Of a DNA stretch of 64,000 nucleotides, positions 31,857-43,564 are shown in pieces. Positions within the stretch are counted from its first letter, which is position 1, and every line of letters begins with the position of its first letter. The DNA lies in assembly GCA_021155965.1 (NCBI GenBank), contig JAJNBJ010000010.1, forward strand, positions 62,001-126,000, in the 5' to 3' direction. The position numbers were made by a program, and so were the translations under genes. The stretch is from Flavipsychrobacter sp. Its GTDB lineage: Bacteria > Bacteroidota > Bacteroidia > Chitinophagales > Chitinophagaceae. The notes under the pieces are model-generated. The model ran no database searches and was not told the origin of the DNA. It was given only the letters and a program-made list of their open reading frames with translations.

Positions 31857-32990
31857 GTGAGGTCAGTTTATATTACAAGACTTTCTAAATGCCTGCCTAA
31901 TGAACCGGTTTCCAATGATGAAATGGAAGGTATTTTAGGGATGATCAACGGAAAGCCATCAAGGGCGCGGCTGCTGGTGTTGAGGAATAATGGTATAAAG
32001 ACCAGGTATTACGCTGTTAAAAACGGGGTTAGAACGCATACAAACGCTCGTTTGGCTGCTGAGGCTGTGAGGGCGCTGTTCGATGAAAAACTACCTATCA
32101 GTAGGTTACAATTACTTACAGCAGGCACTACTTCGCCCGAGCAAATATTGCCTTCGCATGCATCAATAATCCATGGTGAGCTGGGTGCAGGGAACATAGA
32201 AATAATCAGTGCTGCGGGTTCTTGTTGCAGCAGTATACAGGGGCTAAAATATGCTTATATGTCGGTTGCCGCAGGGCTTACAGATGTGGCTGCAAGTTGT
32301 GGTTCTGAACGTCTGTCAGCATGGTTAATGGCATCGCGTTACCAATCTGAGGCAGATAGCTGGCAGGAAATGGAGCGTAACCCATATATCGCATTTGAAA
32401 AGGATTTTTTGCGATGGATGCTGAGCGATGGCGCCGGTGCTGCCCTTTTGCAACCTGAGCCTAATCAGGTAGGACTTTCATTGAAAATTGAGTGGTTGGA
32501 GGTTAGTTCTTATGCAAATGAGCTGGAAACCTGCATGTATGCCGGGGCTGTGAAAAATGAAGATGGGTCAATGACGGGGTGGAACGACATGGATGTTTCC
32601 AAATGGGCAACAGAAAGTGTTTTCTCATTAAAGCAGGATACACGCCTGCTTGGCGCTAATATTATTAAAAAAGGTGGTGCTTATTTGAGCAAGCTGATAC
32701 AGAAAAAAGGATTTACCTCAAATGACATTGATTATTTCCTGCCGCATATGTCCAGTGAGTTCTTCAAAAAAGAAATGTACGATACGCTCTCTGAGATAGG
32801 ACTCCAGATCCCCTATGAAAAGTGGTTCTACAACCTGCCTTGGGTGGGTAATGTAGGCAGTGCATCTGCCTACCTGATGCTGGAAGAATTGTTCCACAGT
32901 GGCCGTCTTAAAAAAGGTGACCGTATTCTTGTTATGGTTCCTGAAAGCGCACGCTTTGTCTATGCCTATATGTACCTCACTGTTGTTTAG
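31857..32990 (+). CDS. darB: DarB-type ketosynthase III, copy 1 (dialkylresorcinol synthesis)
   Basis: This 377-residue thiolase-fold enzyme resembles beta-ketoacyl-ACP synthase III of the DarB group. In related pathways DarB joins two beta-keto acyl chains and cyclises them to a cyclohexanedione. The nucleophile region is ISAAGSCCSSIQGLKYA, with Cys123 in the FabH position and an adjacent Cys124. The His297 (FLPHMSSEF) and Asn332 (VGNVGSASAY) regions complete the triad. It starts with GTG. The next gene is a same-length, gap-free homologue that looks about two-thirds identical by eye, and a DarA-type gene follows. The exact acyl substrates are unknown. Confidence 0.85.
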   Translation: MRSVYITRLSKCLPNEPVSNDEMEGILGMINGKPSRARLLVLRNNGIKTRYYAVKNGVRTHTNARLAAEAVRALFDEKLPISRLQLLTAGTTSPEQILPSHASIIHGELGAGNIEIISAAGSCCSSIQGLKYAYMSVAAGLTDVAASCGSERLSAWLMASRYQSEADSWQEMERNPYIAFEKDFLRWMLSDGAGAALLQPEPNQVGLSLKIEWLEVSSYANELETCMYAGAVKNEDGSMTGWNDMDVSKWATESVFSLKQDTRLLGANIIKKGGAYLSKLIQKKGFTSNDIDYFLPHMSSEFFKKEMYDTLSEIGLQIPYEKWFYNLPWVGNVGSASAYLMLEELFHSGRLKKGDRILVMVPESARFVYAYMYLTVV

Positions 32991-33082
32991 AGGCTATAAT
33001 AAATAACCTTAATGGTATGGTTTTTGTAGGCTCCGTACATTAGTTTAGCTTAATTTTATTCTCTACTGCAAATCATTCTTTA

Positions 33083-34216
33083 GTGAGACCAGTTTACATT
33101 ACCAGGTTATCCAAATTTCTACCCAATGATCCTGTTTCGAATGAAGAAATAGAAACCGTAATTGGAAAAGTTAGTGAAAAAAGTTCCCGTGCACAGATAG
33201 CTGTTTTGCGAAACAATGGCATAAAAACAAGATATTACGCTTTCCGCGACGGCAAAAGCACGCATAGTAATGCTGAGTTGGCAGCGACCGCGGTGCAAGC
33301 TTTGTTCGATGAGGAAATTCCAATAGAAAAACTCCAGTTATTATCTGCTTCAGTATCCACACCAGAGCAAATTTTGCCATCACACGCCTCAATGGTACAT
33401 GGATTGCTAAAAGTGCCTGATGTGGAAATAATAACTGCTACCGGTGCATGCTGCACAGGGTTGCAGGCATTAAAATATGCGTTCCTGTCAGTAGGTTCTG
33501 GCGATAAGGATATTGCCGTAAGCTGTGGTTCAGAAAGAGCATCTACGTGGATGCATGCGTCCAGGTTCCAGGCAGAAGCAGACAGTCTTGAGCAACTGGA
33601 CAAAGAACCAATAATTGCTTTTGAAAAGGATTTTTTGCGATTCATGCTCAGCGATGGCGCCGGTGCAGCGTTATTGCAAGATGTACCGAACAAAAATGGA
33701 CTGTCTTTACAGATAGAATGGATTGATATAAGATCATACGCGAACGAACTGGAAACCTGCATGTATGCCGGTGCTGTGAAAAATGAAGATGGCTCGCTTA
33801 CAGGCTGGAATGATATAAACCCCGCTGAATGGACTGCAAAAAGTGTATTCTCGTTCAAGCAGGATACCAATATGCTTCGGGGTAATATTATTGCGAGAGG
33901 TGGGGATTTTCTGAATGAATTAAAAGAGAAATATGGGCTGTCAGCAGATAAGATAGATTACTTCCTTCCTCATCTTTCCAGCGAGTATTTTAAAAAGGAA
34001 ATGGTGGAATACCTCGAGAAAATTGGCATGCCCCTTTCTCCTGAGAAATGGTTCTACAATCTTACAAAAGTGGGCAACATTGGCAGCGCATCAGCCTATG
34101 TGATGCTTGAGGAGCTTTTTTACAGCGGCAAGCTCAAAAAAGGCGATCATATCCTGGTAATGGTGCCGGAAAGTGCCCGGTTTACTTATGGGTATATGTA
34201 TCTCACGGTCGTTTAG
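33083..34216 (+). CDS. darB: DarB-type ketosynthase III, copy 2
   Basis: This is a tandem paralogue of the preceding gene with the same length and start codon. Cys123 and Cys124 are conserved in ITATGACCTGLQALKYA, and His297 and Asn332 regions are present (FLPHLSSEYF, VGNIGSASAY). Both active sites appear intact, so neither copy is a pseudogene. A 92-base gap separates them. The copies may differ in acyl preference or form a heterodimer. The DarA gene begins 15 bases downstream. Confidence 0.85.
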   Translation: MRPVYITRLSKFLPNDPVSNEEIETVIGKVSEKSSRAQIAVLRNNGIKTRYYAFRDGKSTHSNAELAATAVQALFDEEIPIEKLQLLSASVSTPEQILPSHASMVHGLLKVPDVEIITATGACCTGLQALKYAFLSVGSGDKDIAVSCGSERASTWMHASRFQAEADSLEQLDKEPIIAFEKDFLRFMLSDGAGAALLQDVPNKNGLSLQIEWIDIRSYANELETCMYAGAVKNEDGSLTGWNDINPAEWTAKSVFSFKQDTNMLRGNIIARGGDFLNELKEKYGLSADKIDYFLPHLSSEYFKKEMVEYLEKIGMPLSPEKWFYNLTKVGNIGSASAYVMLEELFYSGKLKKGDHILVMVPESARFTYGYMYLTVV

Positions 34217-34231
34217 TAACTTTAACACCGA

Positions 34232-35158
34232 ATGAAGCCAAATATACTGGTACTGTATTATTCCCAAACAGGCCAGCTCCGACAGATATTAGACAGCATT
34301 TTATCAGGCATTTTGGATAAGGTTGAGGTTAGTTATGGTGTTATAGAGCCTGTAAAGCCGTTTCCGTTCCCGTGGAAGGCATTGAATTTCTTTGATGCTA
34401 TGCCCGAAACGGTGGAGCATCTGCCCGTCAATATAAAGCCGTTATCGCAGGATATTATCAATAAGGATTATGACCTGGTGATCCTCGGTTACCAGCCATG
34501 GTTCCTGAACCCGTCTCAGCCAACTACTGCATTTCTGCAAAGCGAATTTGTCAAAGTGCTGAATGATAAACCGGTTATTACGGTAGTGGGTTGCAGGAAT
34601 ATGTGGTTGCATGCCCAGGAAAAAGTAAAGGAATATCTATGTGCTGCAAACGCGCACCTTGTAGGTAATGTAGTGCTTACAGATACCAATCCTAACCTGG
34701 TTTCTTTATTAACAGTTATACGTTGGTCGTTTAAGGGGCAGAAAGCAGCGTCGGGCTGGTTGCCGACAGCCGGGGTGCAGGATCAGGACATAGCAGATGC
34801 CGAAAGGTTTGGCCATATAATCTACAAACATCTTAATGAGAATAACCTAATAGACCTGCACCGCGAATTGCTAATGCAAAGAGGCGTTGTGTTGAAGCCG
34901 GGACTGGTTATATTAGAACAAAGAGGTATCAAAAATTTCCGGTTTTGGGCAAAGTATATCAGGGCAAAAGGTGGTCCGGGCGATCCTAACCGTGCTAAAA
35001 GAGTGTTATTATTCAAAAATCTTTTGCTTACAGCTATATTCATTTTATCGCCTCTTTCGTTCTTAACGGCGAAAATAAAGCAGTTAATAATGTACAACTC
35101 CCTGGTGAAAGATGTAGACTACTTCAAACATTTGCAGTTTGAGAAAGGCAAGCTTTAA
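34232..35158 (+). CDS. darA: DarA-type dialkylresorcinol enzyme
   Basis: This 308-residue protein matches the family annotated as dialkylresorcinol condensing enzyme DarA. It begins with a flavodoxin-like FMN phosphate loop in VLYYSQTGQL, and the middle has 'DLVILGYQPWFLNPSQPTT' and 'VGCRNMWLHAQEKVKEYL', typical of the family. From published dialkylresorcinol pathways, as I recall them, DarA aromatises the cyclohexanedione made by DarB, which fits a flavin fold. A hydrophobic segment near residues 270-290 may attach it to the membrane. It follows the second darB by 15 bases. No aryl-polyene (flexirubin) genes are nearby. Confidence 0.8.
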   Translation: MKPNILVLYYSQTGQLRQILDSILSGILDKVEVSYGVIEPVKPFPFPWKALNFFDAMPETVEHLPVNIKPLSQDIINKDYDLVILGYQPWFLNPSQPTTAFLQSEFVKVLNDKPVITVVGCRNMWLHAQEKVKEYLCAANAHLVGNVVLTDTNPNLVSLLTVIRWSFKGQKAASGWLPTAGVQDQDIADAERFGHIIYKHLNENNLIDLHRELLMQRGVVLKPGLVILEQRGIKNFRFWAKYIRAKGGPGDPNRAKRVLLFKNLLLTAIFILSPLSFLTAKIKQLIMYNSLVKDVDYFKHLQFEKGKL

Positions 35159-35174
35159 TTAATAATTTCATTGA

Positions 35175-36428
35175 ATGTTGTTTCTGTATAATTTTTTCCT
35201 CTTTTTGTACCAATTAGCCATAAAGGCTTATTCTGTGTTCAATGCCAAAGCTCAGAAATGGGTGGATGGCAGGAAGGGATGGGAGCAGCATATTGCCGCA
35301 ACGTTAAAACAAGGAGAAAAGAGGATATGGTTTCATTGCTCATCAGTAGGTGAGTATGAGCAGGCAAAGCCATTGATAGAGGTTATGAAAGCTGAATTCC
35401 CGGCTTATAAGATCATAGTTACTTTTTTCTCTCCATCGGGCTATGAAGCATGTAAGGACAGTAAATTGCTGGACTATGTATTCTACCTGCCACATGATAA
35501 TAATAATAATGCAGAACGGTTTGTCTCATTGGTCGCACCATCAATGGCATTATTTGTAAAATATGAGTTTTGGTATCATTATTTACAGGCATTAAAAACA
35601 AGACAGGTACCCACTATGCTGGTGTCCGGTGCATTCCGGAGCGAACAGCCATTTTTTAAATGGTATGGCAGCTTGTTCAGGAAAATGCTGCAAAACTTTA
35701 CCTGGTTCTTTGTGCAGGACGATGAATCGAAAAAAATGCTCAATAAAATTGGCATTGAAAGTAACGTTATCATTTCTGGCGATACACGATATGACAGGGT
35801 AGCAACAATAGCCAACAATCTGTCCCCGATACCAGCTATCGAGGAATTCCAGGGGAATCATAAGATATTAATAGCCGGCAGCACCTGGCCGGGTGATGAA
35901 GAAGTACTCAAGGAATGTCTGGAGTTACTTCCTGATGATTGGAAACTGGTATTAGTGCCTCATGAAATTGACGATGCACACATCAAAAAAATACAGCAGC
36001 TTTTCGATAATAAACCAATCCTGTTTACTGACCTCAAAGATGGGAATACAGGGTATGACAAAAAGGTGTTGATAGTAAATACAATGGGTATGCTGTCGCG
36101 CATGTATTCTTACGGAGAGATAGCATTTATAGGCGGTGGTTTTCAGAAAGGGGGTATCCATAACATACTGGAGCCTGCTGTTTTTGGTTTACCGGTTCTG
36201 TTTGGTCCTATATATGAAAAATTTGTAGAAGCGAAAGAATTAGTAGCTCATCAATATGTATTTCCTGTAAATGATGCCGCAGAAGCTAAAGAAAAGTTGA
36301 AGAAACTGATCGAAGATGTAGATTATCGCCAGTCGCTGCACAATTCTTTAAAGAAATTTATGCAGGAGCACATTGGCGCTAGCGGGAAAGTTGTGGATAT
36401 TATCCAAAAGAAGAAATGGCTGATTTAA
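35175..36428 (+). CDS. waaA: Kdo transferase WaaA (3-deoxy-D-manno-octulosonic acid transferase)
   Basis: WaaA attaches Kdo-type sugars from the CMP donor to lipid A precursor at the inner face of the inner membrane. A hydrophobic N-terminal helix anchors the protein. The GT-B core shows WFHCSSVGEYEQAKPL, and the donor-binding segment 'GGGFQKGGIHNILEPAVFG' is the family signature (normally GGSF...GGHNILEPA). The 417 residues are normal. It lies 17 bases after darA and about 1.5 kb before the genes that make its presumed donor. Confidence 0.94.
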   Translation: MLFLYNFFLFLYQLAIKAYSVFNAKAQKWVDGRKGWEQHIAATLKQGEKRIWFHCSSVGEYEQAKPLIEVMKAEFPAYKIIVTFFSPSGYEACKDSKLLDYVFYLPHDNNNNAERFVSLVAPSMALFVKYEFWYHYLQALKTRQVPTMLVSGAFRSEQPFFKWYGSLFRKMLQNFTWFFVQDDESKKMLNKIGIESNVIISGDTRYDRVATIANNLSPIPAIEEFQGNHKILIAGSTWPGDEEVLKECLELLPDDWKLVLVPHEIDDAHIKKIQQLFDNKPILFTDLKDGNTGYDKKVLIVNTMGMLSRMYSYGEIAFIGGGFQKGGIHNILEPAVFGLPVLFGPIYEKFVEAKELVAHQYVFPVNDAAEAKEKLKKLIEDVDYRQSLHNSLKKFMQEHIGASGKVVDIIQKKKWLI

Positions 36429-36863: not shown

Positions 36864-37088
36864 ATGTTGAGTGTTAAAGCTATTTATGATGGGAAAGAAC
36901 TGAAGTTTATGGAGAAAATAAAAATAGATTCTCCTCATGCGGTCATTGTTACATTTCTTGACGAGCCGGGAGATGATATTACGTCTGAAGCAATGCAACA
37001 TATTGCAATGGAAGGAGAAGCCTTTACATTTCTTCAGAATCCCGAAGAAGACATCTATTCAGATAATGATCTTAAGGTGAAATATTAA
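36864..37088 (+). CDS. Antitoxin of a MazF/PemK toxin-antitoxin pair
   Basis: This 74-residue protein has a short beta N-terminus ('SVKAIYDGKELKFMEKIKI') and an acidic C-terminal part that should wrap the toxin, a layout common to small antitoxins next to PemK genes in this phylum. No clear DNA-binding motif is evident. Its stop overlaps the toxin start by one base (TAATG). I chose ATG at 36864 over GTG at 36858 because of spacing from the -7 box. Confidence 0.75.
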   Translation: MLSVKAIYDGKELKFMEKIKIDSPHAVIVTFLDEPGDDITSEAMQHIAMEGEAFTFLQNPEEDIYSDNDLKVKY

Positions 37089-37429
37089 TGCGGCGCGGTA
37101 CCATTGTTCTTACAAAATTTCCATTTACAGATTTATCTTCTGTAAAAAGGCGTCCGGGAATTGTAGTTTCACAAAGCGTCAGCGGTGAAAATGATGTTAT
37201 CATTGCTTTCATTTCTTCAGTAATTCCTGTTAATTCAGAGGGGACAGATTATATAATAGCATCTACTCATATTGATTTTTTAGAAACTGGATTGAAGAAA
37301 TCCTCGATCATAAAACTGAATAAAATAGCTACTATCAATTCATCTCTTATCTCAGGCGAAATAGGTAGCGCATCGGCTGCAATAATGAAAGAAGTAGATG
37401 CCCGGTTAAAAATGGCCCTTGGATTATAG
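37088..37429 (+). CDS. MazF/PemK-family toxin (mRNA interferase)
   Basis: The 113 residues show the MazF/PemK beginning RRGTIVLTKFPFTDL, then 'KRRPGIVVSQSV' and 'STHIDFLETGLKKSSIIKLNKIATI', which fit the SH3-like barrel with its active-site Arg and the later Thr/Ser segment. Members cut mRNA at short sites and are neutralised by the adjacent antitoxin. The start overlaps the antitoxin stop by one base, as expected for a coupled pair. The pair separates waaA from the Kdo8N operon. Confidence 0.87.
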   Translation: MRRGTIVLTKFPFTDLSSVKRRPGIVVSQSVSGENDVIIAFISSVIPVNSEGTDYIIASTHIDFLETGLKKSSIIKLNKIATINSSLISGEIGSASAAIMKEVDARLKMALGL

Positions 37430-37886: not shown

Positions 37887-39092
37887 ATGCCAGGAACAGA
37901 ACTATTCGGAGCCGAAGAACGCAAAGAAGTAAATGATGTATTGGAAACAGGGATGCTTTTTCGTTATAACCATGATGCCCAACGCAATGGTATATGGAAA
38001 GCACGCGAATTCGAAGCAGAAGTAAAAAAACAGTTGGGTGCTAAGTATGCTCATGCTGTTTCCAATGGTTCTGCAGCTATTGCTATCGCACTGGCTTCTG
38101 CAGGAATAGGTGCAGGCGATGAAGTGATATGTACGCCATTTACATTTATAGCAAGTGTCGAGGCTGTTCTGTTCGTAGGCGCTATACCTGTATTCGCAGA
38201 AATAGATGAAACCCTATGCCTGAGCGCAGAAGGAATTAAGAAAGTGCTTACCCCAAAGACCAAGGGTATTTGCCTGGTGCATATGTGCGGTGGTATGGCT
38301 GATATGGATAGCATCATGCAGGTGGTGAATGAGCATAACCTTATCCTTGTGGAAGATGCAGGCCAGGCATATGCGGCTTCTTATAAAGGAACATCGGTAG
38401 GCTTGTTTGGCAAAGCAGGTAGCTATTCTTTCGACTTCTTTAAAATAGCAACCGCGGGTGAAGGCGGTATATTCGTTACTAATGATGAAGAAACATATAA
38501 ACTTGCAGACGCTTATTCAGACCATGGCCACAACCACGTAGGTAATAACCGTGGTATGGAGCAACATCCGGTACTGGGTTTCAATTATCGTATCAGTGAA
38601 TTGCATGCAGCTGTTGCCTTGGCGCAAACACGCAAGGTGCCACAGGTGCTTGCCGCAAACCGCAGGAACAAAAAGATGCTGGAAGATGCCCTTTCTAAAA
38701 CAGAGGGTATATCATTCGCGCGCGTAGCAGACCCGGCCGGCGATTCTGCTACCTTCCTCAATATGATGCTGCCTGATACAGAGACCGCAAAGCGTACTGT
38801 TGATGAATTGAATAAAGCAGGTGTAGGTGGTTTCAATTATTGGTACCTGAATATGTATCACTTCATCAACCAGTGGGATCACCTGAAGAACATGAAGACG
38901 GTATCAAAACTTCCGGCTGAAGTACTCGGCATACCACGGGACTATAACAACCTGCATTTACCAAAGTCACAGGAAGTGATCGGCCGCCTTGTTTCTTTTG
39001 TTATACGCTGCACATGGACAGAGGAAGAAGTAAAAGCATTAGGACAAAAGATCGCTGGATGTGTTGAAGCAGCAATGCCGGCACATGTTTAA
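37887..39092 (+). CDS. kdnA: KdnA-like PLP aminotransferase (8-amino-Kdo synthesis)
   Basis: This DegT/DnrJ/EryC1-fold enzyme has 401 residues. The PLP lysine is Lys186 in SFDFFKIATAGEGG, and Asp157 (VEDAGQAY) binds the PLP ring nitrogen. In the known Shewanella pathway KdnA transfers an amino group from glutamate to the C8 aldehyde of oxidised Kdo. The assignment rests on the next gene being a metal-dependent alcohol dehydrogenase (KdnB) and on kdsA, kdsB and a KdsC-like phosphatase following in the same operon. By sequence alone it could be another sugar aminotransferase. Confidence 0.85.
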   Translation: MPGTELFGAEERKEVNDVLETGMLFRYNHDAQRNGIWKAREFEAEVKKQLGAKYAHAVSNGSAAIAIALASAGIGAGDEVICTPFTFIASVEAVLFVGAIPVFAEIDETLCLSAEGIKKVLTPKTKGICLVHMCGGMADMDSIMQVVNEHNLILVEDAGQAYAASYKGTSVGLFGKAGSYSFDFFKIATAGEGGIFVTNDEETYKLADAYSDHGHNHVGNNRGMEQHPVLGFNYRISELHAAVALAQTRKVPQVLAANRRNKKMLEDALSKTEGISFARVADPAGDSATFLNMMLPDTETAKRTVDELNKAGVGGFNYWYLNMYHFINQWDHLKNMKTVSKLPAEVLGIPRDYNNLHLPKSQEVIGRLVSFVIRCTWTEEEVKALGQKIAGCVEAAMPAHV

Positions 39093-39115: not shown

Positions 39116-40195
39116 ATGCACAAGAATTTTAAAAACATAGATAAGGTTGTTTTCGGCCGGGGCAGTTTCTCTGAGATGGGGAACATCCTTGCTGAAAAAC
39201 GGAATGAGAATAACAAGTTCTTTCTTTTTGTAGTGGATAACTATTTCAAAGGAAAGGATCTCGAAAAACGCATTGCTGCGCAACCGGAAGATATAGTTCG
39301 GTTCATAGATGTCGACCCACATGAGCCAACTACTGAGCAGATAGATAATCTGCGCGATGAAGTGCTTGCAGCGAAAGGCTTGCCTGCCGGTGTGGTTGGC
39401 ATAGGTGGTGGTAGCATTATGGATATTGCCAAGGCAATATCACTGATGTTCACTAACGAGGGCTCATCTGTACAATATCAAGGTTTGAACCTGATCAAGA
39501 AGCCTGGTCTTTACCATTTGGGTGTTCCTACTATTTCCGGTACTGGTGCAGAAGTGTCTATGACGGCTGTGCTTACAGGGCCGGTAAAGAAGCTAGGTCT
39601 GAAATGCGACTGGACTGTATTTAACCAGGTAATACTTGATCCCGAGTTAATAGCGTCTGTACCTACAGATAAGTGGCTCTATACAGGTATGGACACATAC
39701 ATCCATTGTATAGAATCAGAGAATGGTACCCTGAATAATGCTTATAGCCATGCCTTTGCAGAACAGGCATTGAAACTTTGCCGTGATATTTATCTTGGTG
39801 AAAAAGCAGGCCAAACTCCGGAAAATGATGATAAGCTTATGGTTGCCTCTATGATGGGAGGACTTAGCCTTACATACTCGGAGGTAGGTGTATGTCACGC
39901 TTTATCTTATGGACTGTCTAAGATACTTGGCGAGAAACATTGTTATGCTAATTGTGTAGCCTTCCAGCACCTTGAAGATTATTACGGAGAGGGTGTAAGG
40001 GAATTAAAACAGATGTTGGTGCAACACAATGTGCAGTTGCCTCAAGGGTTGTCAAAGGGCTGGAGTGATGAAACGATCACAGCAATGGCAGAAGTTGCGT
40101 ATAATCTGCCGCATATGTGGAACCATGCTATCGGCGCTGATTGGAAAGAAAAAGTATCATTAGATACTATTAAGGAACTTTATAAAAGAATGTAA
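39116..40195 (+). CDS. kdnB: KdnB-like metal-dependent alcohol dehydrogenase
   Basis: This iron/zinc-dependent (group III) alcohol dehydrogenase has 359 residues. The NAD-binding GGGS is at 97-100 followed by MDIAKA. The metal ligands are visible as Asp193 and His197 (GMDTYIHCIES), His261 (GVCHALSYG) and His275 (LGEKHCYAN). In the known Kdo8N pathway KdnB oxidises the C8 hydroxyl of Kdo to an aldehyde for KdnA. It lies 23 bases after kdnA and 2 bases before kdsA. Confidence 0.88.
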   Translation: MHKNFKNIDKVVFGRGSFSEMGNILAEKRNENNKFFLFVVDNYFKGKDLEKRIAAQPEDIVRFIDVDPHEPTTEQIDNLRDEVLAAKGLPAGVVGIGGGSIMDIAKAISLMFTNEGSSVQYQGLNLIKKPGLYHLGVPTISGTGAEVSMTAVLTGPVKKLGLKCDWTVFNQVILDPELIASVPTDKWLYTGMDTYIHCIESENGTLNNAYSHAFAEQALKLCRDIYLGEKAGQTPENDDKLMVASMMGGLSLTYSEVGVCHALSYGLSKILGEKHCYANCVAFQHLEDYYGEGVRELKQMLVQHNVQLPQGLSKGWSDETITAMAEVAYNLPHMWNHAIGADWKEKVSLDTIKELYKRM

Positions 40196-40197
40196 AA

Positions 40198-41031
40198 GTG
40201 AGTGTAAAAAAAGTAAAAGTCGGGAATATCAATTGTGGTGCTGATGAGTTGTTTCTTATCTCGGGCCCATGCGTAATAGAGGATGAGTCAATAATGATGA
40301 AAACAGCTGAAAAGCTGAAGGACGTAAGCGCCAAGCTGAACATTCCCATCATTTATAAATCTTCTTTCCTGAAGGATAACCGCAGTAGCCTTAAGTATTA
40401 TGATGGTCCGGGAATGGATAAAGGGCTGAAGATATTAGCTAAAGTAAAAGAACAGTTTGGGTTTACCCTATTGACAGACATTCACTACCCTGACCAGGCA
40501 GCCCCTGTAGGCGAGGTATGCGATGTTTTGCAAATACCAGCTTATCTATGTATGCAATCTGGTCTTATGGTAGCTGCAGCAAAAACTGGTAAGGTGGTAA
40601 ATATCAAACACGGCCAGTTCCTTGCACCGGATAATATGAAACACCCGGTAGCTAAGTGTGAGGAGGCGGGTAATAGCCAGATCATTCTTACAGAACGTGG
40701 CTACACAATGGGTTATAACGACCTTATTGTTGATCCCCGCAGCTTTTATCACCTGGCCAATATTGGCTACCCGGTAGTATTTGATATTACCCATGCTATT
40801 CGCAAATATGGTATTCCAAGTGCTGATGCAAAAGGTGGCGCACGCGAGTTTTTACCTGTATTGAGCAGGGCAGGAGTTGCAGCCGGGGTAGATGGCATAT
40901 TCATTGAAACTCATCCTGAACCTGAAAAAGCTCTTTGCGATGCTGCCAGCCAGTTAAGTGTTTATGCACTTGAAGAGTTTTTAAAGCCTTTGATAGAATT
41001 GCATGCTATTGAGGTAAAATACAGGGGATAA
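40198..41031 (+). CDS. kdsA: Kdo-8-phosphate synthase KdsA, metal-dependent type
   Basis: KdsA condenses phosphoenolpyruvate with arabinose 5-phosphate. Motifs include SGPCVIED, 'YKSSFLKDNRSSLKYYDGPG', TDIHYPDQA and NIKHGQF. The metal-ligand set is Cys25 (GPCVIE), His199 (DITHA), Glu237 (IFIETHPEP) and Asp248 (CDAASQ), matching the metal-dependent class. The metal-independent E. coli enzyme has Asn where Cys25 stands. It starts with GTG, 2 bases after kdnB. Confidence 0.95.
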   Translation: MSVKKVKVGNINCGADELFLISGPCVIEDESIMMKTAEKLKDVSAKLNIPIIYKSSFLKDNRSSLKYYDGPGMDKGLKILAKVKEQFGFTLLTDIHYPDQAAPVGEVCDVLQIPAYLCMQSGLMVAAAKTGKVVNIKHGQFLAPDNMKHPVAKCEEAGNSQIILTERGYTMGYNDLIVDPRSFYHLANIGYPVVFDITHAIRKYGIPSADAKGGAREFLPVLSRAGVAAGVDGIFIETHPEPEKALCDAASQLSVYALEEFLKPLIELHAIEVKYRG

Positions 41032-41091: not shown

Positions 41092-42105
41092 ATGGAATTA
41101 TACTTGGATTCAGCCAACCTTAAGGAAATTGAAGAAGGATTTAAACTAGGGTTTCTTAACGGTCTTACTACCACACCTACCTTCATGCAGCGCGAAGGCA
41201 TTGCAGATATTGATGCCATGATAGTGAAGCTATCTAAAATGGTGCCTGTCCTTCAGATAGAAGCTTTAGGTAATACTGCTGAAGATGTGGTGAAAGAAGC
41301 GCACCGCCAGTTAAAACTCGGGTTGGATCCGAAGAAAACGGTTTTTAAAATACCGGTTTCTCTTGAGGGCGTTCGTGCATGCAAGTTGTTGCGCAATGAT
41401 GGCCTGTTGGTGAATGTTCACCTTGTATATACTTTACAGCAGGCTTATATGGCTATGCATGCCGGTGCTTCTTATGTTTGCCCGCTGGTGGGCCGCCTGC
41501 AAGATCAGGGCCACGATGCATTGGCGCTTGTAAAACAGTGCGTAGATGCTGTCAATCACTATGGTTATGATACCAAGATCATGTTCAGCTCGGTACGTAC
41601 TACAGAACATGTACGTAACGCAATAAATGTAGGAGTGCATACAATTACAGTTCCACTGAAGATATTGAAATCGCTTACCGATAATAACTTCACCACAATT
41701 GGTACAGAGCAGTTCCTTAGCGATACCCGCCTGATGACGGTACGTGTGAAGGAAGCTATAAATGGCACTAACCCAATAGTGAGTGAAAGCTCGAACCTGA
41801 AAGATGCTATTGTAAAAATGACTGAATATGGCTTTGGCTGTATCACAGTTGTGAATGCTGACGGTAGCCTCAGTGGTATATTTACAGATGGCGACCTAAG
41901 AAGGTTATTGCAGAAAGATGGTGAGCATATTTTGGATAAGAAAGTAGGCGACCTGGTTAACAAAACACCTGTTAGCATAGATGCTAATGCCTTGCTGAAC
42001 GAGGCACAAGGCATCTTTAAGAAAATGAATGTGGATACTATTCTTGTAACTGAGAAAGGCAAGCCATGCGGCATGCTGGATATACAGGATTTGAAAAGAT
42101 ACTGA
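41092..42105 (+). CDS. Transaldolase-fold domain fused to KdsD-type CBS pair
   Basis: Residues 1-215 match small transaldolases/fructose-6-phosphate aldolase: Asp6 (ELYLDSANL), Glu57, Schiff-base Lys86 (FKIPVSLEG) and the VGRLQDQGHD segment. Canonical positions differ: TTNP is TTTP (Thr28 for Asn28), NVTLVF is NVHLVY (His110), and SPFVG is CPLVG (Cys130, Leu132). Residues about 225-337 are two CBS motifs. GIFTDGDLRR (262-271) is the signature of the KdsD/KpsF arabinose-5-phosphate isomerase tail. It sits between kdsA and a KdsC-like gene, and no SIS-type KdsD is in the window. I infer a role in supplying or controlling arabinose 5-phosphate; activity is unproven. Confidence 0.8.
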   Translation: MELYLDSANLKEIEEGFKLGFLNGLTTTPTFMQREGIADIDAMIVKLSKMVPVLQIEALGNTAEDVVKEAHRQLKLGLDPKKTVFKIPVSLEGVRACKLLRNDGLLVNVHLVYTLQQAYMAMHAGASYVCPLVGRLQDQGHDALALVKQCVDAVNHYGYDTKIMFSSVRTTEHVRNAINVGVHTITVPLKILKSLTDNNFTTIGTEQFLSDTRLMTVRVKEAINGTNPIVSESSNLKDAIVKMTEYGFGCITVVNADGSLSGIFTDGDLRRLLQKDGEHILDKKVGDLVNKTPVSIDANALLNEAQGIFKKMNVDTILVTEKGKPCGMLDIQDLKRY

Positions 42106-42110
42106 TCTGC

Positions 42111-42824
42111 ATGACAACTTCCGATCTCGATCATCTCAAAGGTCTTTTCTCAGGTACTTTTCTTGTTGAGCCATTAACGCTGCAGGAAAAACTACTGAAA
42201 GTAAAGGCATTCGTGTTCGATTGGGATGGCGTGTTCAATAACGGAACGAAGGATGCCAGTGGTTCCAGTCCGTTTAATGAGGTAGATTCTATGGGCATAA
42301 ACATGCTCCGGTTCAACCATTATTTATGGAAAGGTAAAATTCCATTTACAGCAGTGATTACAGGTGAGTTGAATACTGCAGCATTCACTTTTGCGCGAAG
42401 GGAGCACTTTCACGGAGTGTATTACAACATAAAAAACAAAAAGGAAGCACTGTTGCATCTATGCGAAAGGCATGGGATAGACCCACACGAAGTCGCTTTC
42501 TTTTATGATGATGTACTTGATCTCTCTGTTGCTGAGCTGGTTGGCCTACGCATTATGATAGGCCGTCCCGGAAGCCCTTTATTATCAGCGTTAGCTCAGA
42601 GAAATAAGCTTGTGGATTATATTACAGCAATGGATGGGAGCAGGAATGCAATACGTGAAGCGACTGAATTACTAATGGGCCTCAGCGGTAAGTATGATGA
42701 TACTATTATGCAAAGGGTGCATTATACTGATACCTACCACCAGTATCTGACTAACCGCAACGCGCATGAGCCCACTTTTTATACATTAACCTATTCAGAA
42801 ATAACAGAACAGCAGCCTAAATGA
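42111..42824 (+). CDS. KdsC-like HAD phosphatase (Kdo-8-phosphate phosphatase candidate)
   Basis: This C0-type HAD protein has the DxD nucleophile in FDWDGVFNNG (Asp37, Asp39), a motif II Thr in VITGE, a Lys in 'NIKNKKEAL', and the acidic motif FYDDVLDLSV (Asp133, Asp134). KdsC has the same order and hydrolyses Kdo 8-phosphate to Kdo. At 237 residues it is about 50 longer than typical KdsC because of a C-terminal extension of unknown role. The operon position supports the assignment. An ATG 45 bases upstream lies inside the preceding gene and is not favoured. The stop overlaps kdsB by 4 bases (ATGA). Confidence 0.8.
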   Translation: MTTSDLDHLKGLFSGTFLVEPLTLQEKLLKVKAFVFDWDGVFNNGTKDASGSSPFNEVDSMGINMLRFNHYLWKGKIPFTAVITGELNTAAFTFARREHFHGVYYNIKNKKEALLHLCERHGIDPHEVAFFYDDVLDLSVAELVGLRIMIGRPGSPLLSALAQRNKLVDYITAMDGSRNAIREATELLMGLSGKYDDTIMQRVHYTDTYHQYLTNRNAHEPTFYTLTYSEITEQQPK

Positions 42825-43564
42825 TAGCAGGCATTATTCCGGCAAGATATGCATCTACACGTTTCCCTGGTAAATCGCTGATTGATATCCAGGGTAAAAG
42901 CATGATACAGCGTGTGTATGAAGAAGCATCAAAAAGCACTTCTTTAAACAAGCTTGTTGTTGCGACTGATGATAAACGCATTTTTGATCATGTTGTTTCG
43001 TTTGGTGGTGAGGCTGTGATGACAGGCGCAGGCCATCCAAGTGGTACGGACCGTTGCTGGGATGCGTTGCAGCAAATTGGTAATATTTACCAATACGTTA
43101 TCAATATACAAGGCGATGAACCTTTTATCGATCCTGCTCAGATTGATGAACTGGCTGCAATACTGAAAGATGGAACAGTAGAATTGGCCACGCAGATGAT
43201 ACCTGTAAGCAATTACGAAGAGCTGTTTGATAAAGGGGAAGTGAAAATAGTGTTGAATAACAAAATGGAAGCACTTTACTTTAGCCGTATGGTGATCCCC
43301 TTTATCAAGGGTGTTGAGGAAAAAGATTGGCATAAGCACCATGCATACTTTCGTCATGTGGGTATGTATGCCTATCGCAGGGATATATTAGAGAAGATAA
43401 CTAACCTGTCTGTTTCGCCTTTGGAAAAGGCTGAATCGTTAGAGCAGCTTCGCTGGCTGGAAGGTGGCTTTAAAATAAAATGCGTTACCACCCGGTATGA
43501 AAGTCATTGCATTGATACGCCAGAAGATGTTGAAAAAGTGCTGAGGCGCATGGGAAGACATTAA
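42821..43564 (+). CDS. kdsB: CMP-Kdo synthetase KdsB (possibly CMP-Kdo8N form)
   Basis: KdsB activates Kdo with CTP for WaaA. Motifs include IIPARYASTRFPGKSL (CTP-binding loop), ATDD, 'GHPSGTDRCWDAL', NIQGDEPFI and HVGMYAYRRDIL. The 247 residues are normal. In Shewanella a dedicated KdsB homologue prefers Kdo8N. The linkage to kdnA and kdnB suggests the same here, but no residue visible to me decides it. It overlaps the phosphatase gene by 4 bases. Confidence 0.94.
   Translation: MIAGIIPARYASTRFPGKSLIDIQGKSMIQRVYEEASKSTSLNKLVVATDDKRIFDHVVSFGGEAVMTGAGHPSGTDRCWDALQQIGNIYQYVINIQGDEPFIDPAQIDELAAILKDGTVELATQMIPVSNYEELFDKGEVKIVLNNKMEALYFSRMVIPFIKGVEEKDWHKHHAYFRHVGMYAYRRDILEKITNLSVSPLEKAESLEQLRWLEGGFKIKCVTTRYESHCIDTPEDVEKVLRRMGRH

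Follow-up and report, generated by a model that had tools for sequence, protein, structure and literature searches.

A transaldolase-fold enzyme with the regulatory tail of KdsD appears to take the place of KdsD in the Kdo pathway of many Bacteroidota

Kdo is an essential sugar of lipopolysaccharide, and the enzymes of its synthesis, a core pathway of Gram-negative bacteria, are antibiotic targets. The five-carbon precursor of Kdo is arabinose 5-phosphate (A5P), which KdsD makes from ribulose 5-phosphate (Ru5P). KdsD and the related KpsF and GutQ combine a SIS domain with a pair of CBS domains. We know of no transaldolase that is involved in the Kdo8N pathway of Shewanella.

Enzymes of the transaldolase family can form A5P as well. 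The fructose-6-phosphate aldolase (FSA) FsaA makes it from glycolaldehyde and glyceraldehyde 3-phosphate (PMC6298115, PMC9947464), and the TalB variant F178Y yields both A5P and ribose 5-phosphate (R5P) (PMC9947464, PMC6298115). In FSA the donor is recognised by Asp6 and Asn28, and the catalytic water is held by Gln59, Thr109 and Tyr131 (PMC13259622); Ala129, or Ser at that position, tunes the use of dihydroxyacetone (PMC3962226). In the literature we found no paper on a transaldolase-CBS fusion or on a transaldolase replacing KdsD.

Here we describe such a fusion, called TAL-CBS, in a window of 64,000 nucleotides (the whole stretch of DNA analysed) from a Flavipsychrobacter genome. In many Bacteroidota KdsD appears to have been swapped for this unrelated transaldolase, which carries the regulatory tail of KdsD and indicates an undescribed route to A5P. 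The genes and domains of the locus are the following.

35175..36428, + strand: waaA/kdtA, Kdo transferase (PF04413), a recurrent neighbour (22 of 98 loci)
37887..39092, + strand: kdnA, homologue of the Kdo8N transaminase (PDB 5k8b, 435 bits)
39116..40195, + strand: kdnB, homologue of the Kdo 8-oxidase (PDB 5k8c, 413 bits)
40198..41031, + strand: kdsA of the distinct subfamily KdsA', Kdo-8-phosphate synthase (TIGR01362 328 bits, NF003543 344 bits)
41092..42105, + strand: fusion gene for TAL-CBS (337 aa), the proposed stand-in for KdsD in A5P formation
41092..41727, + strand: transaldolase-fold domain, residues 1-212 (PF00923; the AlphaFold model matches 3r8r and 3s0c)
41734..42102, + strand: KdsD-type CBS pair, residues 215-337, with GIFTDGDLRR at 41875-41904
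42111..42824, + strand: KdsC-like HAD phosphatase (NF007019 53 bits, below the cut-off); the ORF is also readable from 42066
42821..43564, + strand: kdsB, CMP-Kdo synthetase, with a 4-base overlap with the HAD stop codon

The gene order kdnA-kdnB-kdsA-TAL-CBS-HAD-kdsB, all on the + strand, is that of a Kdo8N operon, in which KdnA and KdnB are clear homologues of the crystallised Shewanella enzymes and stand beside Kdo genes. The HAD gene probably starts at 42111 and not at 42066, because its homologues begin at residue 16 of the longer ORF. Upstream of the operon, a PemK/MazF-like toxin gene (37088-37429) lies just 5' of kdnA, two tandem DarB-type ketosynthases of the dialkylresorcinol/flexirubin type occupy 31857-34216, and a further gene (34232-35158) sits between these and the Kdo transferase.

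In profile searches TAL_FSA (Pfam: PF00923) covers residues 3-201 of TAL-CBS with an E-value of 1.8e-35 and is followed C-terminally by two matches to CBS (Pfam: PF00571). The AlphaFold model has a mean pLDDT of 87.5, and its first domain matches the transaldolases of B. subtilis (3r8r, Z 28.9) and T. acidophilum (3s0c, Z 28.8). By sequence, the best PDB matches of the tail are the CBS pairs of KdsD proteins, with 4o9k first. A separate model of the tail also matches CBS pairs, among which the KdsD pairs 3k2v, 3fna and 4o9k score at most Z 1.0 below the top match, and many CBS pairs from other proteins score close to them. The G-x-F-TDGDLRR motif is common to TAL-CBS and the resident KdsD proteins (GIITDGDLRR in KdsD), and divergent TAL-CBS proteins end in a REGLIG-like C-terminus, the same as KdsD. 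Against the KdsD/KpsF profile TIGR00393 the CBS part alone is matched (positions 152-266), with a score below the cut-off, and the SIS domain is absent. The FSA profile TIGR00875 gives 162.3 bits against a cut-off of 245.95, so TAL-CBS does not class as an FSA. An assembly artefact can be ruled out, as the fusion was found in 82 of 396 genomes and at 491 contig loci.

The active-site positions of the first domain are listed below.

41107..41109, + strand: codon of Asp6, the catalytic Asp of the family, kept
41173..41175, + strand: codon of Thr28, in place of the donor-site Asn28 (Asn35 in TalB)
41260..41262, + strand: codon of Glu57 (Glu96 in TalB, Gln59 in FSA), kept and transaldolase-like
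41347..41349, + strand: codon of Lys86, the Schiff-base lysine, equivalent to Lys86 of the T. acidophilum transaldolase
41419..41421, + strand: codon of His110, in place of the Thr of the catalytic-water site
41479..41487, + strand: codons of Cys130-Pro131-Leu132, in place of Ser(Ala)-Pro-Phe(Tyr), at the donor and water sites

The first-pass annotation of this DNA had described a Schiff-base aldolase domain (Asp6, Glu57, Lys86) joined to a CBS pair with GIFTDGDLRR, three altered motifs (TTTP, NVHLVY and CPLVG) and a position between kdsA and a KdsC-like gene, and all of these features are indeed present. Across 144 aligned TAL-CBS relatives, Asp6, Glu57, Lys86, Thr28, His110, Cys130 and Leu132 are invariant, with the exception of a degenerate copy and of one row with a gap. 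Arg135, Ser167 and Arg169 of the phosphate site are conserved in all intact copies, and Tyr113, Ser166 and His183 are additional invariant changes. At the four positions that are Thr28, His110, Cys130 and Leu132 in TAL-CBS, the resident TalC proteins (n=16) have Asn, Thr, Ser and Phe. A sequence of E. coli FsaA was aligned for comparison.

Judged from these alignments, the sites for the donor hydroxymethyl group and for the water are rebuilt in TAL-CBS, and the lysine and the phosphate grip are retained. Because Lys86, Asp6 and Glu57 are kept in every intact copy, Schiff-base chemistry is pointed to. The changes Asn28 to Thr and Ser130 to Cys remove the partners of the dihydroxyacetone hydroxymethyl group and would match a substrate with one carbon fewer than fructose 6-phosphate, such as A5P, which lacks its C1. 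An aldose phosphate bound as an imine at its C1 would agree with this pattern.

SIS-type KdsD was found neither in the window, as the first-pass annotation had stated, nor in the whole source genome (4.25 Mb, 99.78% complete) by searches with the SIS and KpsF profiles, which rules out a KdsD hidden elsewhere. The matches to the KpsF profile in this genome are to the CBS part alone. The four SIS matches belong, by their sequences, to GlmS, which has two of them, to a phosphoglucose/phosphomannose isomerase-like protein and to GmhA, which also rules out an isomerase built from a SIS domain only. An ordinary TalC is encoded elsewhere in the genome, and a separate TalC is present in 13 of the 14 TAL-CBS genomes of the genus, so the housekeeping transaldolase is a different protein from TAL-CBS.

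TAL-CBS is present in 13 relatives of the same genus, and four others lack it and have a SIS-CBS KdsD instead. A sample of the phylum (n=296) has TAL-CBS in 5 genomes, all 5 of them without KdsD, and KdsD in 211. In a sample of the class (n=396), 80 genomes have TAL-CBS only, 240 KdsD only, two have both and 74 neither, with a Fisher p of 1.5e-37 that ignores the shared ancestry of the genomes. Another 34 TAL-CBS genomes comprise 31 without KdsD and three with both, one of which (G354) is apparently the same assembly as G533. The first-pass annotation had named one finding that would speak against its proposal, a canonical kdsD at another place in this genome and in every relative with the fusion; this was looked for and not seen. 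The survey of fusions and their neighbours that it had suggested shows that TAL-CBS recurs (82/396 genomes), that Kdo genes are its common neighbours and that it is nearly exclusive with KdsD.

TAL-CBS is found in 18 families, in one of which (f64) the sole copy is degenerate. Eight families include both genomes with an intact TAL-CBS and genomes with KdsD, when f64 and f89 are left out of the count. Named carriers include Chitinophagaceae bacterium LGM1, with a complete chromosome, IBVUCB1, and MAGs of Flavipsychrobacter and Taibaiella. Among the genomes with neither gene, kdsA is absent in 69 of 73 tested. Two genomes of this group with kdsA have a TAL-CBS adjoining it that is interrupted by the contig end (G694, G550), one has only a partial kdsA match (G371) and one has genus-mates that possess KdsD (G540).

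In one genome (G588; L198, L204, L205) the two Kdo routes coexist, one made up of TAL-CBS and KdsA' and the other of KdsD and an additional, canonical KdsA; besides it, three sampled genomes hold both TAL-CBS and KdsD. Another genome, G397, was set aside as a counterexample, since neither Lys86 nor the TTTP motif survives in its TAL-CBS and the genome is without kdsA. This degenerate copy (L201:4389-5390) is possibly a leftover or a CBS sensor. A replacement of KdsD at the same genomic spot was ruled out, as the kdsD of congeners, and their different kdsA, lie at dispersed positions. In a tree, TAL-CBS and the resident TalC proteins fall on opposite sides of a branch with 100/100 support. Together with the common signature residues and the tail, this suggests a single origin of TAL-CBS, followed by spread through the class or differential loss within it.

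Around 98 TAL-CBS loci, many of which end at contig ends, the neighbours are kdsA (78 loci), HAD (77), kdnB (62), kdnA (60), kdsB (59) and kdtA (22), and each remaining gene is present in at most 14. A dependence of TAL-CBS on Kdo8N was ruled out by LGM1 (L088), which has kdsA-TAL-CBS-HAD-kdsB without adjacent kdnA and kdnB. In 11 of the 98 loci, for example at L048:6266-6679, kdsA and TAL-CBS are separated by a PIN-domain (VapC-like) gene of the same orientation. The KdsC-like HAD is absent from the operon in several congeners (L048, L050, L053), where the Kdo-8-phosphate phosphatase must either be encoded at another locus or be dispensable.

The KdsA of TAL-CBS genomes forms a distinct subfamily, KdsA', with 41-50% identity to the KdsA of relatives with KdsD, and it is present in all 81 genomes with an intact TAL-CBS. 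The KdsA of the window scores 328 bits against the TIGR01362 cut-off of 314 and keeps the N-R-S phosphate motif as KDNRS, so that it classes as a Kdo-8-phosphate synthase. One genus uses both of the unlike KdsA subfamilies (L226, L227 and L228 compared with 40198-41031 of the window).

Two genomes, G279 (a single contig of 7.0 Mb) and G620, have the operon kdnA-kdnB-KdsA'-HAD-kdsB from which TAL-CBS alone is absent, and encode a SIS-type KdsD elsewhere. Since KdsD makes A5P, the KdsA' of these genomes should use A5P, and TAL-CBS should therefore deliver A5P where KdsD is gone. This natural swap is the strongest argument for A5P supply, drawn from gene content. The near mutual exclusion, the shared dedicated KdsA and the swap inside an otherwise identical operon strongly support TAL-CBS as the stand-in for KdsD as A5P source.

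That TAL-CBS forms A5P, by whichever route, thus seems quite likely to us. It is also likely, by a slightly smaller measure, that it has replaced the catalytic half of KdsD without being homologous to it, feeds A5P to the adjacent Kdo-8-phosphate synthase and senses the end product with its CBS tail. In the proposed mechanism A5P would be formed at Lys86, through a Schiff base on the aldose with the imine at C1, and Arg135, Ser167 and Arg169 would grip the substrate phosphate. The carbon would come from glycolaldehyde and glyceraldehyde 3-phosphate or from R5P via the same enzyme-bound glycolaldehyde enamine. On balance we lean towards a natural transaldolase-family enzyme that makes A5P by such Schiff-base carbon chemistry, as an A5P synthase or an R5P 2-epimerase, and that, controlled by a regulatory domain inherited from the displaced enzyme, has taken over from isomerisation in Kdo synthesis in hundreds of Bacteroidota.

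As for regulation, the tail would sense CMP-Kdo or CMP-Kdo8N. The KdsD CBS pair in 4o9k was solved with a ligand, which we take to be CMP-Kdo, and by homology the tail of TAL-CBS most likely binds a CMP-sugar end product. The control through CBS ligand binding that the first-pass annotation had considered is plausible from the same homology to KdsD.

For the chemistry we tentatively place a ribose-5-phosphate 2-epimerase first, in which R5P would form an imine at Lys86, C2 would be inverted by retro-aldol and aldol steps or by proton exchange on the enamine, and A5P would be released. TalB F178Y forms R5P as well as A5P when given a single donor-acceptor pair, and since the reaction is reversible, a site of this kind could convert R5P to A5P with no need of free glycolaldehyde. 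Cells always contain R5P, and a partner gene is unnecessary. Against this, no natural epimerase of the transaldolase family is known to us, and the roles of His110 and Glu57 at C2 are putative.

An A5P synthase acting on free glycolaldehyde and glyceraldehyde 3-phosphate, as proposed in the first-pass annotation, is possible but rather doubtful. FSA catalyses this reaction in vitro and gives the correct stereochemistry, and the loss of the ligands of the dihydroxyacetone hydroxymethyl group suits a glycolaldehyde donor. However, no glycolaldehyde-producing gene was recognised among the recurrent neighbours of the 98 loci, the gene is a one-for-one exchange for KdsD, an enzyme that draws on the ever-present Ru5P, and an engineered A5P shunt was estimated to need about 1 mM glycolaldehyde at least (PMC6298115). 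The lack of a co-occurring glycolaldehyde source makes us slightly favour R5P over free glycolaldehyde. Of the original proposal of A5P by aldol chemistry, the role in place of KdsD has thus been strengthened by the exclusion, KdsA' and the swap, and its particular substrates have become one of three routes, weakened by the absent supplier.

The third route, acid-base isomerisation of Ru5P to A5P by a protein of transaldolase fold, would be the reaction of KdsD on another fold and is improbable. It would agree with the one-for-one exchange and with the new invariant histidine (His110) at the water site, but Lys86, Asp6 and Glu57, kept in all intact copies, speak for a Schiff base, the invariant Lys86 would be left without explanation, and a ketose bound as a C2 imine has no direct path to A5P.

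It is still less probable that the operon makes a different sugar, with TAL-CBS yielding another aldehyde that KdsA' uses in place of A5P. KdsA' differs invariantly from canonical KdsA (KANRS to KDNRS, and R120M, K139H and Q205R in E. coli numbering) and has low identity to the KdsA of KdsD-bearing relatives. These changes are likely near the aldehyde site, so the substrate could differ from A5P. KdsA' nevertheless retains the N-R-S motif and the PEP lysines, KdnA, KdnB and KdsB match Kdo-acting enzymes, and KdsA' occurs with KdsD and without TAL-CBS in G279 and G620.

Least probable of all is an ordinary transaldolase or aldolase under Kdo control, with A5P coming from another enzyme such as GlmS: the fold is that of a transaldolase and GlmS is encoded in the genome, but a separate TalC is present, four canonical active-site positions are invariantly changed, an E. 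coli kdsD gutQ mutant is an A5P auxotroph with the GlmS that E. coli has of its own, and GlmS, present with or without KdsD, cannot explain the exclusion. In favour of GlmS, eukaryotic GFATs, which are GlmS-type enzymes, isomerise Ru5P to A5P (PMC11301363).

If TAL-CBS does stand in for KdsD, a large set of environmental Bacteroidota would have an unrecognised enzyme at the first committed step of Kdo synthesis, and their KdsD would count as absent. It would be a clear case of an exchange of the catalytic domain with the regulatory domain retained, and a natural A5P-forming aldolase or epimerase of the kind sought by engineers of carbon-conserving pathways. The existing A5P auxotroph of E. coli K-12 makes the hypothesis directly testable.

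Compared with the known systems, the locus resembles the Shewanella Kdo8N pathway in that clear homologues of KdnA (5k8b) and KdnB (5k8c) flank TAL-CBS. With the TalC/MipB proteins of T. acidophilum and B. subtilis (3r8r) TAL-CBS shares the fold, Asp6, Glu57, Lys86 and Arg135/Ser167/Arg169 at about 33% identity, whereas their Asn28, Thr110, Ser130 and Phe132 are Thr, His, Cys and Leu in TAL-CBS, which adds the CBS tail. With FsaA it shares the fold and the Schiff-base lysine at about 24% identity, but FSA has Gln59, Tyr131, Ala129 and no CBS domain where TAL-CBS has Glu57, Leu132, Cys130 and the CBS pair. The Francisella transaldolase of PDB entry 3upb, described in the entry title as a covalent complex with A5P, has its lysine bonded to A5P in the adduct that we propose for TAL-CBS; there A5P is presumably an inhibitor and not a product. 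KdsD, KpsF and GutQ are like TAL-CBS in pathway position, in the type of CBS tail and in the G-x-x-TDGDLRR motif, and across genomes the two are nearly mutually exclusive. Their catalytic domain is SIS, whereas that of TAL-CBS is a transaldolase TIM barrel with no sequence relation to it.
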